From: Chrysosporum bergii ANA360D
GTDB taxonomy: Bacteria; Cyanobacteriota; Cyanobacteriia; Cyanobacteriales; Nostocaceae
Direction of reading: 5' to 3'
NCBI RefSeq assembly: GCF_029891735.1
Contig: NZ_JANQDH010000116.1
Location: 1 to 64,000, forward strand
Length of the DNA stretch: 64,000 nucleotides
This document shows positions 58,470-64,000 of this stretch, one piece after another. Below the pieces are notes generated by a model, which was not told the origin of the DNA, ran no database searches, and was given only the letters and a program-made list of their open reading frames with translations. Both the position numbers and the translations under genes were made by a program. Numbering within the stretch: position 1 is the stretch's first letter; each line of letters begins with the position of its first letter.

Positions 58470-58599
58470 GGTTTATAGGATATAGCATTTCTTAAACACA
58501 AAGTGAAATCTTGTAGTGCGGGCATCTTCTCTGCTGTGACTGCTTAAGTAATATTATTGACATAAAAGATATCAAGAAACATAGTTAAAATGACTAGTT

Positions 58600-58703
58600 A
58601 AAATGACTGAGGCGTAAACCCATCAACTGGCTTTCATCCTTTGCCTGAAGGACGGTTAAGTTTTTCCGCCAGGCTCCAAAACTCAACCTTAAGGGTTTTC
58701 AGC
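58600..58703 (-). repeat. Omega-RNA-like/right-end relic (family B), copy 3
   Basis: The minus strand reads AGCTGAAAACCCTTAAGGTT, then TTTTGGAG, GGCGGAAAAACTTAACCG and TGAAAGCCAG. This matches 50532-50610 closely. The terminal hairpin (GGGTTTACGCC part) is worn and the TCAA end is not clear. Confidence 0.6.
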
Positions 58704-58922
58704 TTATTTTATCATACGAAATAGGTCTTTTATGTTATGATTTGGGTTTAAGGTTGTGGCCAAGTATTCAGCCATAACCTTTTTTGACGGTAAGTAAATC
58801 TGTAAAGCTATAGTGTATTTAGCAATGCTGCTGTTGGCGTGGTCATGGTTAACCCCTACTGCCAGGTATTTTTGATGAATTTGTTTGCAAAGACACTCTA
58901 ACTCGATGACAGGCAAAAACAC
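58704..58922 (-). CDS. Doubtful short ORF antisense to FHA-PrsW start
   Basis: Seventy-two codons with no recognised domain. It begins 17 bp inside the opposite gene and ends at the edge of the family B relic. It could be cargo or a remnant of the old element. Given only as a possibility. Confidence 0.2.
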   Translation of the reverse strand: MFLPVIELECLCKQIHQKYLAVGVNHDHANSSIAKYTIALQIYLPSKKVMAEYLATTLNPNHNIKDLFRMIK

Positions 58923-60273
58923 AAGACATAATGCATTTCTCCGGCTAGTGTCTGGTAATGCAGGACCTTATGGCTCTGAATCTCGCTACTCCCTGCTAAC
59001 TAGTAAAGAGGTCGTAATTGGACGTGACCCCACTTGCCAAATTGTCTTGGATGCTCTGACTTATCGCATGGTATCTCGGCGTCATGCTGTGGTTCGTCCC
59101 CTCTCTTCGTCTATTGATGGTAAATTTAGCTGGCTACTTTGTGATTTAAATAGTGCCAATGGCACTTTCTTAAATGGAAAGTGCTTGTTTGAATGTCAGG
59201 AATTACACGCAGGCGATCGCATTTCTCTGGGTTCTGATGGACCGCAATTTATTTTTGAGTATGATTTGATTTCTCAGCCCACAGAAATGAGCAAACAAGT
59301 CAAACCCCTACCGTCAGCTTCTCAAAATAACGGTCACACTGATTTAAAACAGCCGGATTCAGTGAGTTTTACCCAACTGTTTCCCATTATTTCCACTGGT
59401 AAGGATTTAACTCGCAAGGCTTACTTAATACCGGGAATACTGACTGTGATCTTTGTGGTACTGATGTTTGCTACAGTGGGTCGCCCCCAAGCTAATCAAG
59501 TGATTGTGGCAACTTATATCGCATCAGCTGCTTACTATTTTGTTTACCAACTGTGCGGTAAACAAAAGCCTTGGTGGGTACTAGTGGGAACAGCATTGAG
59601 TACAACTTTTATTTTGCTGAGTCCTTTATTGAATTTGTTTATTTTTGTGTTTCGGGTGATTTTGCCTGGTAGTTTACCTTCACCTGAAGAGCCTACCACG
59701 TTTACAGAATTGCTGGTAAGAATGTTCTTTGGTGCGGGGTTAATGGAAGAGTTACTTAAGGCCTTACCTCTCATTGCTGCCTATTTCATAGGTCGGGGTT
59801 TAACCTCGCCTTGGCGGGAACGCGTCGGTATTTGGGAACCTTTGGATGGTATTCTCTTGGGTACAGCTTCTGCTATTGGCTTTACTTTGCTGGAAACTCT
59901 GGGGCAATATGTGCCACAAATTACGCAGCAGGTAGGTATAGGGGCGGCTGGTCAATTGGTGGGATTTCAATTGCTAATTCCCCGCATTCTCGGTTCGGTA
60001 GCCGGACACATGGCTTACAGTGGCTATATGGGATATTTTATTGGCTTGGCTGTACTTAAGCCCCGCATGAGTTGGCAGATTCTCTCCATTGGTTATATTA
60101 GCGCCTCTGCTCTCCATGCTTTATGGAATGCCACAGGCTCCATTAATGCTTTACTGTTGGTGGTGGTTGGGGTGGTGTCCTATGCGTTTTTAATGGCAGC
60201 AATTCTCAAAGCACGGGTGTTATCACCAACGCGATCGCAAAACTTTGCTACCCGGTTTATCGATCCAAAGTAG
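58906..60273 (+). CDS. FHA-PrsW intramembrane protease fusion
   Basis: A 455-residue protein. An N-terminal FHA domain (about 15-105; VVIGRDPTCQIVLD, SRRHAVV and SANGTFLNG) binds phosphothreonine. A linker leads to about eight membrane helices forming a PrsW-type protease, with Glu pair MEELLKALP and His residues in SVAGHMAYSGYMGYF and SALHALWNA. In Bacillus, PrsW cleaves an anti-sigma factor. The internal ATG at 58906 is preferred to the TTG at 58885. It should link phosphorylation to membrane proteolysis. Confidence 0.8.
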   Translation: MTGKNTRHNAFLRLVSGNAGPYGSESRYSLLTSKEVVIGRDPTCQIVLDALTYRMVSRRHAVVRPLSSSIDGKFSWLLCDLNSANGTFLNGKCLFECQELHAGDRISLGSDGPQFIFEYDLISQPTEMSKQVKPLPSASQNNGHTDLKQPDSVSFTQLFPIISTGKDLTRKAYLIPGILTVIFVVLMFATVGRPQANQVIVATYIASAAYYFVYQLCGKQKPWWVLVGTALSTTFILLSPLLNLFIFVFRVILPGSLPSPEEPTTFTELLVRMFFGAGLMEELLKALPLIAAYFIGRGLTSPWRERVGIWEPLDGILLGTASAIGFTLLETLGQYVPQITQQVGIGAAGQLVGFQLLIPRILGSVAGHMAYSGYMGYFIGLAVLKPRMSWQILSIGYISASALHALWNATGSINALLLVVVGVVSYAFLMAAILKARVLSPTRSQNFATRFIDPK

Positions 60274-60290
60274 GGGAGTAGTGAAGTATC

Positions 60291-60320
60291 TTGACACTCC
60301 CCGGACTAAACGCACGGAGG
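60291..60320 (-). repeat. IS605-type right-end relic (family D)
   Basis: In reverse it reads CCTCCGTGCGTTTAGTCCGG followed by GGAGTGTCAA. The loop GTTTAG/T and the end resemble 50632-50644. It starts 18 bp after the FHA-PrsW stop and could also serve as its terminator. Confidence 0.5.
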
Positions 60321-60371
60321 TTATACATTATACTTTTAGAATTTGCTCTAATTCAGGTTTTCACCAAAGGG

Positions 60372-61019
60372 TTAATGTTGAGACTGAAAGGTTTTTAATT
60401 GTCTGAAAGCATAATCAGCGATCGCCACACTAATCTTAGCTTGTTCAATTTCTGATAATGTGAGCCAATCTTGATGTTTAACTTGACTAATCATCAAGGT
60501 TAAGTCTGGGGATTTACTACTACGCATAGCATGGACAAAGGGACGAGTTAAAACCAATAGATCATCTACATCCCAAGCAGGTAATACAGATTTCACGCAT
60601 TGCACTAGTCTATCACTTATGGATTGTTGGCTGGCGGAAATTTCAGCAGCTTTCTTGGCTATGGAGTTTAGCCAGCTTGGGGGTACAATATGGGCAAAAG
60701 CTGAATTTAAAGAAACTTGCAAATGATCCACAGCTGACTTATTCGGATTGCTTTTGTAATTTGAGGTAGTTACAACTTCAGACCAAAGCTGATCTAATGT
60801 TTCATAAAAGGCTAGGGAATTTGCACTTAAGGTTTCATCTAGCCAATCTTGGGTGACAAACTGTTGTTCTAATTGGCTAAAATAAGCTTCAGATTCAACA
60901 TCAGCCGGAGTCCAGGGATAAGTAGCATCTTCTGGCGTTAGTAGTGTATCTAATAATTCTAATTCTATTTCAGACTTTAAAGTCATGAAAGTATCTGATA
61001 CATTATTATTTTTAGTCAT
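60372..61019 (-). CDS. Hypothetical cyanobacterial protein in CHAT/FHA cluster
   Basis: A 215-residue soluble, mostly helical, acidic protein with no signal peptide or membrane segment. Blocks such as YPWTPADVESEAYFSQLEQ and PAWDVDDLLVLTRPFVHAM look conserved, but I do not recognise a domain. Its place between FHA-PrsW and CHAT-FHA genes suggests a partner or substrate role, by inference only. Confidence 0.7.
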   Translation of the reverse strand: MTKNNNVSDTFMTLKSEIELELLDTLLTPEDATYPWTPADVESEAYFSQLEQQFVTQDWLDETLSANSLAFYETLDQLWSEVVTTSNYKSNPNKSAVDHLQVSLNSAFAHIVPPSWLNSIAKKAAEISASQQSISDRLVQCVKSVLPAWDVDDLLVLTRPFVHAMRSSKSPDLTLMISQVKHQDWLTLSEIEQAKISVAIADYAFRQLKTFQSQH

Positions 61020-61312
61020 TTGTCGATTCCTGGTTTTTTATTTATTTATCAATATTGACAGATACAACTGCCAAGATTATTTTTCCGCAAAACTAGGTAA
61101 CAGTTTTGATATGTAAATTAGTATAAGCTGTTTGACACTCCCCACGCTATCCGATGAGATTCCAGCGTCACTGACGTTACTTCCCGAATACCCGACGTTA
61201 GCGTTTACACAATCTCCCTCGCTACTATGCGCAAAAATCCTCTAGGGATGGGAGCGACCACAAGAGTTAAAACATCCCACTCTCCCAAGTTCCAATTTTT
61301 TTCTAATGGCTG
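61020..61312. other. Gap between hypothetical and CHAT-FHA genes
   Basis: A 293-bp non-coding gap. The AT-rich part next to 61019 should hold the promoter of the hypothetical gene. The middle is occupied by the family C relic at 61132. Confidence 0.5.
61132..61212 (-). repeat. IS605-type right-end relic (family C), copy 2
   Basis: TTGACACTCCCCACGC, then ATTCCAGCGTCACTGACGTT and CCCGACGTTAGCGTTTACAC, read in reverse. It matches 62900-62980 over about 80 bases with scattered changes. Several nested stems suggest a folded RNA or DNA end. Confidence 0.7.
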
Positions 61313-62878
61313 CTAGGAATCCTCAAGGACAAACTGCCAAATCTCACTGTGAGAATTGCCAAACTTTAGCTGCATTCCCGATTGTAAAAGAACTTCCTCA
61401 CGGAGTATTTGTTGCCAACCATTAGGACTTAAGCACCAGGTTGTACCGTAGGTGGATAAATCTTGCAGGTAATAATTTCTGACTGTGGTTTTACCTGTGA
61501 GAGTACTGCGGCATAAAATTTCGGCGTGACGTTTGGAAACAGAAGGTTCCGGAATGACAATATCATTATCTTTGGTGCGACCGATGCGGGTGACTCTTGG
61601 TTTAAGAGGCCATGTTTGCCGGCTGGATGAAAGCGATCGCAAATAAGCTGTGGGAATCTGGTAGTTAATATTGGGGGTGATATTATCTGGTAGTTCGGTA
61701 ATTCCTTCATCAAAACTTTTAATTAATTCTCCGTCAAAATCTGGATGTAGATAAAGAACTGGTAGAGTCCAAGCCAATTGATTGAACTTATACAGTGTTA
61801 ACAGTTCTTGCCTAGCTTCTGCAACTGCCTGATCAATTGACTTACGCGATCGCAATGCTTCGGTAAAGGCTTGAATAAAACTGTGGCTTTCGTGGTCGGC
61901 AATTTGATCACGCATTCCTAAAACCGCAGGTACACCATGACGAATTAATACTTCTGCCAAACTGCTGGCGGGAATGGCTTGATGATTGATAGCTGCGGGA
62001 CCAGCGCCCCAGCAAGCATTAAAAACTGCTAGTTTTAGACCTGTCCGGGTTAATACTTGTGCTAATTCAATACCATTGAGGGTCATTTGTGGACGCAAAC
62101 AGAATAGTCCTCCATCGGGTCCAGGTAGTCCATGACCAGCATAAAAGAAAACGTTATAGGCTGAGGTTTCTAACTCTTGAATTAGGTCTTGGGGTGTGGG
62201 TTGCAGGAGTGTTTTAACCATGCAGGGTGCAGATTCCTGAGAGTTGCTACTGGCAATAATTTTTTCTAAGATAGCCGCTTCCTTTGCCAGTTGTAGGTTT
62301 TCATCATGTCCCAAGACCAACAATATATTTAAAGCCTGATCGGTTCGCAAATAAGGTAAGGGTTCAACTTCACTGGTGGTACGACTAAAGAGCAAATCTG
62401 GCGAGAGGGACATGGCCGGTTGGCCGGGGTCGCCCTGCATAATTTCCCAAGGTAGGGCAATTAGATCGGGGTCACGAATTTCTAACCGAAAACGCAAGGG
62501 TTTATACTGCCCCATGGCTATACCGCGACTACGTTCCAGACTACGCAAAATTGGACCGTTGAATACCCAGCGCCAGAGAGTAATACCTAAGTATTGCATT
62601 AGACGACTACTGTAATTAGTTGTCTTTCCTCCAGAGTGTGAGATTAACTTGATGGAGGATGGGTTAACTGACAGTGGCTCTAAACCTGGAGAAATACATA
62701 AACCACTGTGTCCAGCAAACATTTGCTGCCATTCTTGCCAAACTTGAGTTAGTTCATCTGACCACACACAGTCATGTAAAACATAACCACTGGGATAGGG
62801 AGCCTTGACCACCCAAATGGCGAAGTTATTTTTGCCAGTGTTGATGAGACGGGCGATCGCCAAGTTGAGGGATGCCAT
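61313..62878 (-). CDS. CHAT-domain peptidase with C-terminal FHA
   Basis: A 521-residue protein. A caspase-like CHAT domain (about 130-390) has the catalytic His in FFYAGHGLPG (249) and Cys in VFNACWG (289). A C-terminal FHA domain (about 425-515) contains VTRIGRTKDNDIVI and SKRHAEI. CHAT peptidases occur in bacterial caspase-like and gasdermin or CRISPR-linked systems, while FHA reads phosphothreonine. The PP2C gene lies upstream on the same strand, 165 bp away. Confidence 0.85.
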   Translation of the reverse strand: MASLNLAIARLINTGKNNFAIWVVKAPYPSGYVLHDCVWSDELTQVWQEWQQMFAGHSGLCISPGLEPLSVNPSSIKLISHSGGKTTNYSSRLMQYLGITLWRWVFNGPILRSLERSRGIAMGQYKPLRFRLEIRDPDLIALPWEIMQGDPGQPAMSLSPDLLFSRTTSEVEPLPYLRTDQALNILLVLGHDENLQLAKEAAILEKIIASSNSQESAPCMVKTLLQPTPQDLIQELETSAYNVFFYAGHGLPGPDGGLFCLRPQMTLNGIELAQVLTRTGLKLAVFNACWGAGPAAINHQAIPASSLAEVLIRHGVPAVLGMRDQIADHESHSFIQAFTEALRSRKSIDQAVAEARQELLTLYKFNQLAWTLPVLYLHPDFDGELIKSFDEGITELPDNITPNINYQIPTAYLRSLSSSRQTWPLKPRVTRIGRTKDNDIVIPEPSVSKRHAEILCRSTLTGKTTVRNYYLQDLSTYGTTWCLSPNGWQQILREEVLLQSGMQLKFGNSHSEIWQFVLEDS

Positions 62879-62899
62879 GGATTCACTAAACTAAAGGAG

Positions 62900-62980
62900 T
62901 TGACATTCCCCACGCCTTTAGGCGGGGGATTCCAGCGTCACTGGCGTTACTTCCCGTCTGCCCGACGGTAGCGTTTGCAC
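62900..62980 (-). repeat. IS605-type right-end relic (family C), copy 3
   Basis: TTGACATTCCCCACGCC TTTA GGCG, followed by ATTCCAGCGTCACTGGCGTT and CCGACGGTAGCGTTTGCAC. It has a strong terminal hairpin and two further small stems. It lies in the gap between PP2C and CHAT-FHA and is the best preserved family C copy. Confidence 0.75.
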
Positions 62981-63043
62981 GATTCAAAATTACTGTCTGT
63001 ATTATTTCAGATTTTCACAAGTTTAACGAGTACTAACCCAAGT

Positions 63044-64000
63044 TTAATTGGCATCTATGGGTTTGTTAGCTGGAGAAGTTGGGTTAGAGGAAGAATTACA
63101 GAGATTTTTTTGGTTTGATGGCAATATCCGAAGTGGAAACTTTTGCAGTTGAGATAATTTAATCGGTGGTAAAGGCTGATTAGGTGAATTGGTGGTGTTT
63201 GGGGTACAGAGTCGCAAATTTACTAAAACATCTCCAGTTTCCGGCTGAAGATTGGATTTGATATCAATAACTTCTAAAACTTCTAACAAACTTTTTGGGG
63301 GCAATGTTTGCTCACTCTGGAGAGAAATTTCTGCCTGGGTTTCGATTACTCCACCTGGACTGAGGTTGGCAAGGGGTGAGTTTGTGACTGGGGTAGTTAC
63401 AGTTGGTTGTATAGTTTTTATGGGGGTTGGATCTGAGGGCAATCGCCATTCCATTACCCAGTATCCCAGTGAACCAGCTAAGACTACCAAGGAGAAGGGA
63501 ACTATAAAATGTAAGGGTAGTTTAGCAATTCTCGTGGGTTGAGTTTCTGGTATTACCTTGGTTTTTGTGCGATTGGCTTCGCCAGTGCCGTGTAGGCAAT
63601 CGCTATTCTCCAGTATTTGTGGTTGTAATGCTTTGGTGACAGTGTTTGCAACTATGATCGAGGAAATATCGGGAATGAGTGGTTTTATAGTTGATTGTGG
63701 TTCGCAATATTTAATTTTCTGGTGTATTAATGCCAGGGTGACATTATCGTGTCCGTTTTTGGTGTTAGCTAATTCCACTAATTTATCAGCCACTTGGACT
63801 ATATCATTTTCACCAGTGAGAATTGGTAAAATTTCCGTTTCCCAATAATCTTCCACGCGGTCATAATCAGTCAGTCCATCTGATGCCAGTAAAAAAATCG
63901 CATCTTCATCAATGATAAACCTCTGGGAAGTGGGATGTAACAAGTTACTGGCACTCATTCCTAAAGCTTGCAGTAGAGATCCAGCAGCACCTTGTTGCAC
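63044..64000 (-). CDS. Membrane-anchored PP2C-type Ser/Thr phosphatase (C-terminal part)
   Basis: Partial gene cut by the window edge. The visible 318 residues begin inside a PP2C catalytic domain, with the metal-site motifs LLASDGLTDYD and GHDNVTLALI. A linker, one membrane helix (about 168-188) and a 125-residue Pro/Thr/Ser-rich outer region follow. It would remove phosphates placed by Ser/Thr kinases and so oppose FHA binding by neighbours. The GTG at the edge is not the true start. Confidence 0.85.
   Translation of the reverse strand: MQQGAAGSLLQALGMSASNLLHPTSQRFIIDEDAIFLLASDGLTDYDRVEDYWETEILPILTGENDIVQVADKLVELANTKNGHDNVTLALIHQKIKYCEPQSTIKPLIPDISSIIVANTVTKALQPQILENSDCLHGTGEANRTKTKVIPETQPTRIAKLPLHFIVPFSLVVLAGSLGYWVMEWRLPSDPTPIKTIQPTVTTPVTNSPLANLSPGGVIETQAEISLQSEQTLPPKSLLEVLEVIDIKSNLQPETGDVLVNLRLCTPNTTNSPNQPLPPIKLSQLQKFPLRILPSNQKNLCNSSSNPTSPANKPIDAN

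Follow-up and report, generated by a model that had tools for sequence, protein, structure and literature searches.

The closest described relative of the protein at the centre of this study is HetF (alr3546), a CHAT protease that acts in heterocyst differentiation and in cell division and in which a transmembrane segment is followed by a TPR region (PMC8406250), and which is able to cleave PatU3 (reviewed in PMC12288457). FHA-fused PrsW proteins of several bacteria have been proposed to act as signalling peptidases (PMC3482391); the fusion is the same as the one reported here, and the passage on it names neither a cyanobacterial cluster nor a CHAT partner, no word starting with CHAT occurring in the text searched. 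A third point of reference is the plasma-membrane PP2C phosphatase PrpJ, required for heterocyst maturation in Anabaena PCC 7120 (PMC6161253). The window analysed here, the first 64,000 nucleotides of contig NZ_JANQDH010000116.1 of Chrysosporum bergii ANA360D (the contig extends past it, to 76951 bases), carries in a row an FHA-PrsW gene, a gene for an acidic protein of 215 amino acids (H215), a CHAT-FHA gene and a PP2C gene. Each of the domains, and the FHA-PrsW fusion as such, was already known, and neither the four-gene module, nor a HetF paralogy of CHAT-FHA, nor a link between prpJ and alr1728 was found in the literature searched, outside which key subscription papers lay. We consider it reasonably probable that the four genes form one ancestral, phosphorylation-tuned and HetF-like proteolysis module, whose output would be heterocyst maturation in heterocyst formers, with a wider role beyond them.

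An earlier note on this DNA had described the four genes as neighbours encoding FHA, PrsW, CHAT and PP2C domains on more than one strand, and so they proved to be: the open reading frames (ORFs) lie side by side here and likewise in relatives, Pfam profiles return all the claimed domains, and FHA-PrsW (58906..60273, +) faces H215 (60372..61019, -), with CHAT-FHA (61313..62878, -) and PP2C following on the strand of H215. The PP2C ORF leaves the window, which holds its C-terminal part (63044..64000, -); the full gene occupies contig 63044-65311 (L005:5044-7311) and encodes 755 amino acids. The listed FHA-PrsW ORF spans 58885-60273 (+), and the alignment of relatives places the start at an inner ATG at 58906; about 0.4 kb following position 58470, where the note began, holds no listed ORF on that strand. 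FHA-PrsW matches the Pfam families PrsW (2.6e-37) and FHA (2.4e-16), both above cut-offs, with the FHA domain at residues 43-116 of the 462-residue ORF (59011..59232, +) and the PrsW intramembrane protease domain at residues 228-440 (59566..60204, +). The latter scores 128.7 bits against PF13367 (gathering score 23.5) and thus belongs to the superfamily, and at 23.5 bits the protein falls under the 225-bit cut-off of the NCBIfam PrsW equivalog NF033739. The motif set of the superfamily comprises EE, E, H and H, and the corresponding E288, E289, E337, H375 and H411 are invariant in 21/21 aligned sequences. Binding of phosphothreonine by FHA domains is associated with a signature of GR, S..H and NG(T) residues, and G46 R47, S64, H67 and N92 G93 T94 are likewise invariant in the 21-row alignment. 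A TxxD motif in the linker was tried as an FHA ligand and dropped, as its T171 is invariant in the 21 rows, yet falls outside the set of positions that 93% of 51 rows retain.

CHAT-FHA combines a caspase-like CHAT domain (residues 99-364; 61787..62584, -; Pfam 1.3e-19, and 71.2 bits against PF12770, gathering score 24) with an FHA domain (residues 430-507; 61358..61591, -; 5e-14), both above cut-offs. The active sites that the earlier note had read as intact are so on the CHAT side as well, H249 and C289 being invariant in 21/21 aligned sequences, and the catalytic residues of CHAT and PrsW are retained at 93% or more in wider sets of 64 and 51 rows. In the CHAT-linked FHA domain the Asn of the NGT loop is replaced by Tyr (S-T-Y-G-T), and G433, R434, S448 and H451 are retained. 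The best named match of the protein is the HetF model NF045509 (140.8 bits, far under the 1200-bit cut-off), and the same genome also encodes a separate HetF, at 1376 bits. When 40 genomes of our own choosing were searched with this model, HetF itself scored 434-1444 bits (25 of the 40 genomes), CHAT-FHA rows mostly 136-181 bits (one, from G286, was split into 94 + 53), and the remaining rows, HetF pieces aside, 45.2 bits or less, CHAT-FHA being the next-best match after HetF itself. The two proteins share 32% identity over 314 positions through the His/Cys region, where H249 and C289 align with the His and Cys of HetF. In a CHAT tree a branch (99/100) separates CHAT-FHA from HetF; ten collected rows were left out of the tree (eight duplicates, a truncated HetF and the HetF row L213), and its two "other" rows, badly placed with a branch length of 10, cannot root it, so that the HetF relation rests on the scores. 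At the level of sequence these scores make CHAT-FHA a paralogue of HetF. It is unlike HetF in having no hydrophobic segment (no 19-mer of 1.6 or more) and no TPR part, in carrying an FHA domain instead, and in its length (521 vs. 837 amino acids). Seven of the 40 genomes (G051, G308, G095, G105, G143, G111 and G131) hold CHAT-FHA with no HetF match, and CHAT-FHA may therefore be more widespread than HetF.

The unrecognised acidic protein of the earlier note, H215, does carry a net charge of -13 and has no Pfam family match. Across 81 rows it keeps 24 invariant columns; its structure model is helical, with modest confidence (predicted local distance difference test, pLDDT, 71.9), its best match in the PDB (E 0.75) is not convincing and none is enzyme-like, and no paralogue appears in its own genome at E 10. 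The PP2C protein matches Pfam PP2C_2 (8.5e-10), and its modelled PP2C domain matches the fold of PstP (3.9e-12), this domain being the only readable part of an otherwise weak whole-protein model (pLDDT 56). A single hydrophobic segment near residue 602, followed by a C-terminal tail, fits the label "membrane" PP2C. The N-terminus bears invariant Cys residues of zinc-ribbon type, with a weak DZR match under the cut-off (E 0.11). The nearest NCBIfam model is the PRK14559 serine/threonine phosphatase (NF011149), from which the protein differs in scoring 248.5 bits, under the 374-bit cut-off. A pseudokinase between zinc ribbon and PP2C domain, kinase-like by eye, is not claimed: no kinase family turned up when 35 members were compared with Pfam, and no kinase among the sequence matches in the PDB.

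Searching bacterial genomes with CHAT-FHA gave 116 relatives; the 80 best, nearly all from Nostocales genera with a few labelled "uncultured cyanobacterium", were considered. Their CHAT-FHA proteins align over essentially the full length, with best segments 68-85% identical, and the fetched stretches contain H215 in 80/80 cases, PP2C in 79/80 and FHA-PrsW in 77/80. Where full flanks were available (59 loci), CHAT-FHA and H215 were found in 59, PP2C in 58 and FHA-PrsW in 57. Such figures could also arise if the four genes were independent and stood together merely through slow rearrangement, and the same 59 loci lend this some weight, since unrelated flanking families, the housekeeping ndhM included, are frequent too: NdhM in 57, a response-regulator-like protein in 53, a PsiE-like protein in 46, a 150-amino-acid protein in 45 and a large oxidoreductase-like protein in 41. 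Part of the Nostocales neighbourhood signal is therefore background synteny. This account does less well where the surroundings differ: in the lineage of the window, as in L009 and L010, the PP2C side adjoins atp genes and the four genes are still together, and in 40 loci that are mostly distant (3 belong to the own family of the host) the counts for six flanking families of Nostocales drop to 7, 2, 0, 0, 0 and 0, whereas 23 loci still have CHAT-FHA just before H215, both on one strand. PP2C shares this strand in 14 of the 40 loci, and FHA-PrsW faces H215 in 10, or in 11 if a two-base overlap is included. Order and strands of the cluster thus persist while the flanks change, an association beyond chance, and mere slow rearrangement appears quite improbable.

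One set of 386 genomes from the phylum was searched with profiles of all four proteins, and matches were obtained in 89 for H215 (E up to 1e-3), 87 for CHAT-FHA, 80 for FHA-PrsW and 121 for PP2C (E up to 1e-80). H215 and CHAT-FHA occur together in 86 of the 90 genomes with either, H215 and FHA-PrsW in 69 of 100, and H215 and PP2C in 84 of 92, PP2C being counted in this last comparison only at 646 bits or more, a cut of our own choice. Of the genomes drawn, 43 belong to the own family, and every one of them has both H215 and CHAT-FHA, with one CHAT-FHA match each, which looks like vertical inheritance. Outside the own family the pair is present in 43 genomes, adjacent in 24 and apart in 19; each of the latter leaves at least 13 kb of contig free on one of the relevant sides, which excludes contig ends as the cause of the separation, and this co-occurrence of separated copies also speaks against slow rearrangement. 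Among the neighbours of the dispersed copies, no single family is shared by most loci, and by eye the families present look ordinary and unrelated; the 150-bit cut for a nearby H215 in that survey would miss a weak one, and the separation itself is taken from the genome-wide profile searches and the contig check. That the four genes make up one shared module, as first proposed in the earlier note, is well supported by this co-occurrence and by the order kept in distant loci.

We map PP2C, CHAT-FHA, H215 and FHA-PrsW to all1731 (prpJ), all1730, all1729 and alr1728 of Anabaena PCC 7120, by strand pattern and promoter-box positions. In PCC 7120 gene names the letters l and r denote strand, and the l, l, l, r of all1731, all1730, all1729 and alr1728 agree with the strands of the cluster. 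That prpJ is all1731 is published (PMC6161253), and the other three were proposed from gene numbering and then tested by strand pattern and FurA boxes. Such boxes are listed, with their distance to the ATG, for asr1734 (388) and for alr1728 (205 and 531) (PMC4005646, Table 1). Across the 80 loci, 2.67 million positions in total, the asr1734 box has a single exact match; it lies in Nostoc parmelioides (L027), upstream of the PP2C gene and on the strand opposite to it, 387 bases ahead of the start of an ORF. With up to 2 mismatches it has 7 positions, all upstream of PP2C and on the opposite strand. In the same locus an alr1728 box is matched at 16/19 positions, 204 bases before FHA-PrsW, one of 5 such positions in the 80 loci. 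PP2C is hence likened to PrpJ by its position near asr1734 and the all-all-all-alr pattern, and FHA-PrsW to Alr1728 by position and promoter box; resting on this evidence, both identities are very probably correct and have good support.

The published genetics may then be carried over. The prpJ mutant lacks the major heterocyst glycolipid and does not fix N2 in air, and a protein-kinase double mutant lacks the minor heterocyst glycolipid and does not fix N2 in air either (PMC6161253). The alr1728 gene is described as a "Fox gene with unknown function", and its transcript is up on FurA overexpression (PMC4005646, citing Lechno-Yossef 2011). On the mapped orthology of prpJ and alr1728, two of the four genes would act in aerobic nitrogen fixation. 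Furthermore, the 10-gene core of filamentous species includes all1729 together with HetR, HetZ and PatU3 (PMC2821919), and for all1730 we found no report in the literature searched, although key subscription papers lay outside the search and might cover part of this. We infer the FHA ligands, the cleavage of H215 by CHAT-FHA and the PrsW substrate as follows. Kinases encoded elsewhere would set phosphothreonine marks, the Thr-phosphorylated proteins would recruit or release both FHA-bearing proteases, and PrpJ would remove the phosphate. CHAT-FHA would work with H215, in the simplest case cutting it or being held by it, like HetF on PatU3, while FHA-PrsW would clip a membrane protein of the same pathway, and in heterocyst formers the output would be heterocyst maturation, i.e., aerobic nitrogen fixation. 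Such a scheme would place prpJ and alr1728, whose published link to nitrogen fixation is unexplained, in a single pathway open to test, along with a HetF paralogue that seems not to have been studied and a protein of the filament core. It suggests that bacterial development is controlled by caspase-like proteolysis beyond the HetF-PatU3 step, and it offers a way of finding the missing targets of PrpJ.

Several observations weigh against parts of this scheme. The Fisher p-values of co-occurrence ignore shared ancestry, and the second alr1728 FurA box (531) was recovered neither in the 80 loci nor in 211 genomes. FHA-PrsW is the loosest member, absent in 20 of the 89 H215 genomes and present in 11 genomes with no H215. 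No Thr of H215 is kept in 90% of the 81 rows, so the protein does not suggest itself as an FHA ligand, and it may be linked to CHAT-FHA by a route other than FHA. While one genome (G237) has CHAT-FHA and no H215, three (G005, G207 and G123) have H215 and no CHAT-FHA even at E 1e-10, the only match in G207 being HetF-like; these are draft assemblies of 150-230 contigs, in which a gene may have been missed. The interval that separates PP2C from H215 in G005 is intact and empty, nothing being left of CHAT-FHA there, and PP2C, H215 and FHA-PrsW are clustered (L120). H215 may consequently be more than a substrate of CHAT-FHA: left uncut, it could serve as an adaptor, chaperone or inhibitor needed by the module with or without CHAT-FHA, a role to which the three genomes, the cluster persisting in G005 and the helical model with no enzyme-like match all point. 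The near-constant pairing argues the other way, as H215 occurs with no CHAT-FHA in just 3 of 89 genomes, and in 80 genomes tested for HetR the presence of H215 and CHAT-FHA coincided in 39 and was discordant in 4, compared to 28 and 19 for H215 and HetR; we regard the uncut role as a doubtful but serious contender. Besides CHAT-FHA, G005 (L120, L225) has lost the catalytic stretch of its HetF-like protein, a 525-residue frame being left with model positions 139-420 missing.

The HetR sample consisted of 80 genomes outside the own family, 42 of the 46 H215 carriers and 38 non-carriers chosen by us, and HetR_C was found in 28/42 and 5/38, respectively. HetR is thus missing in 14 of the 42 tested H215 genomes, and the role is therefore not in heterocysts alone; whether H215 is confined to filamentous species is not settled by this sample. 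A further and rather unlikely version of the module would make it a second switch of the HetF-PatU3 type, wider and perhaps older than HetF, in which CHAT-FHA cuts H215 on a phosphothreonine cue and PrpJ resets the system; together with FHA-PrsW it would be a general envelope or division regulator of multicellular cyanobacteria, later used for heterocyst maturation.

Csx29 is an example of a CHAT effector that cleaves a partner once an invader has been sensed. By analogy, a caspase-like CHAT protein with a near-constant partner protein could act in defence or regulated cell death, and the earlier note had considered stress signalling, cell death or defence; of the two mutations in a strain resistant to phage, moreover, one lies in another CHAT gene, all2170 (PMC10811720). 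The four proteins, nevertheless, matched 0 families of the PADLOC-DB models at E 0.01, CHAT-FHA is present once in each of the 43/43 own-family genomes and appears to be vertically inherited, its nearest characterised relative is the developmental protease HetF, and two orthologues by mapping, prpJ and alr1728, have nitrogen-fixation phenotypes. A defence function is accordingly highly improbable, and the suggestion of the note is not sustained, the proteolysis module with a developmental output being preferred.

Two neighbours were tried as further members and rejected. PsiE occurs in 57/80 of the relatives' loci, yet in 0/40 distant ones, and the upstream neighbour of 118 amino acids is NdhM, the product of a housekeeping gene; ndhM (L071:4303-4656 and equivalents) stands upstream of PP2C in 57/59 Nostocales loci and 7/40 mostly distant loci, and atp genes are found there in the lineage of the window. 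The Ser/Thr kinase for which the earlier note proposed to look upstream does not belong to the module: the candidate, a WD40-repeat ORF that looks kinase-like by eye, starts some 9.8 kb past the PP2C gene, and in the 80 related loci a protein resembling it is represented by no more than a short fragment, in 7 of them. It stands in a row with a VWA protein (6.4e-10) and a second PP2C (1.6e-58) at L005:15673-18951 (contig 73673-76951); the kinase-like part is its N-terminus, and no kinase is named among the 25 matched families listed, out of 58. This row, arranged as in a TerY-P triad, is near the four-gene module and not part of it. Finally, a 56-base repeat, 88% identical between its copies, occurs at 61158-61213 and 62928-62983, once in each intergenic gap of the PP2C, CHAT-FHA and H215 row, and may be the remnant of a mobile element.

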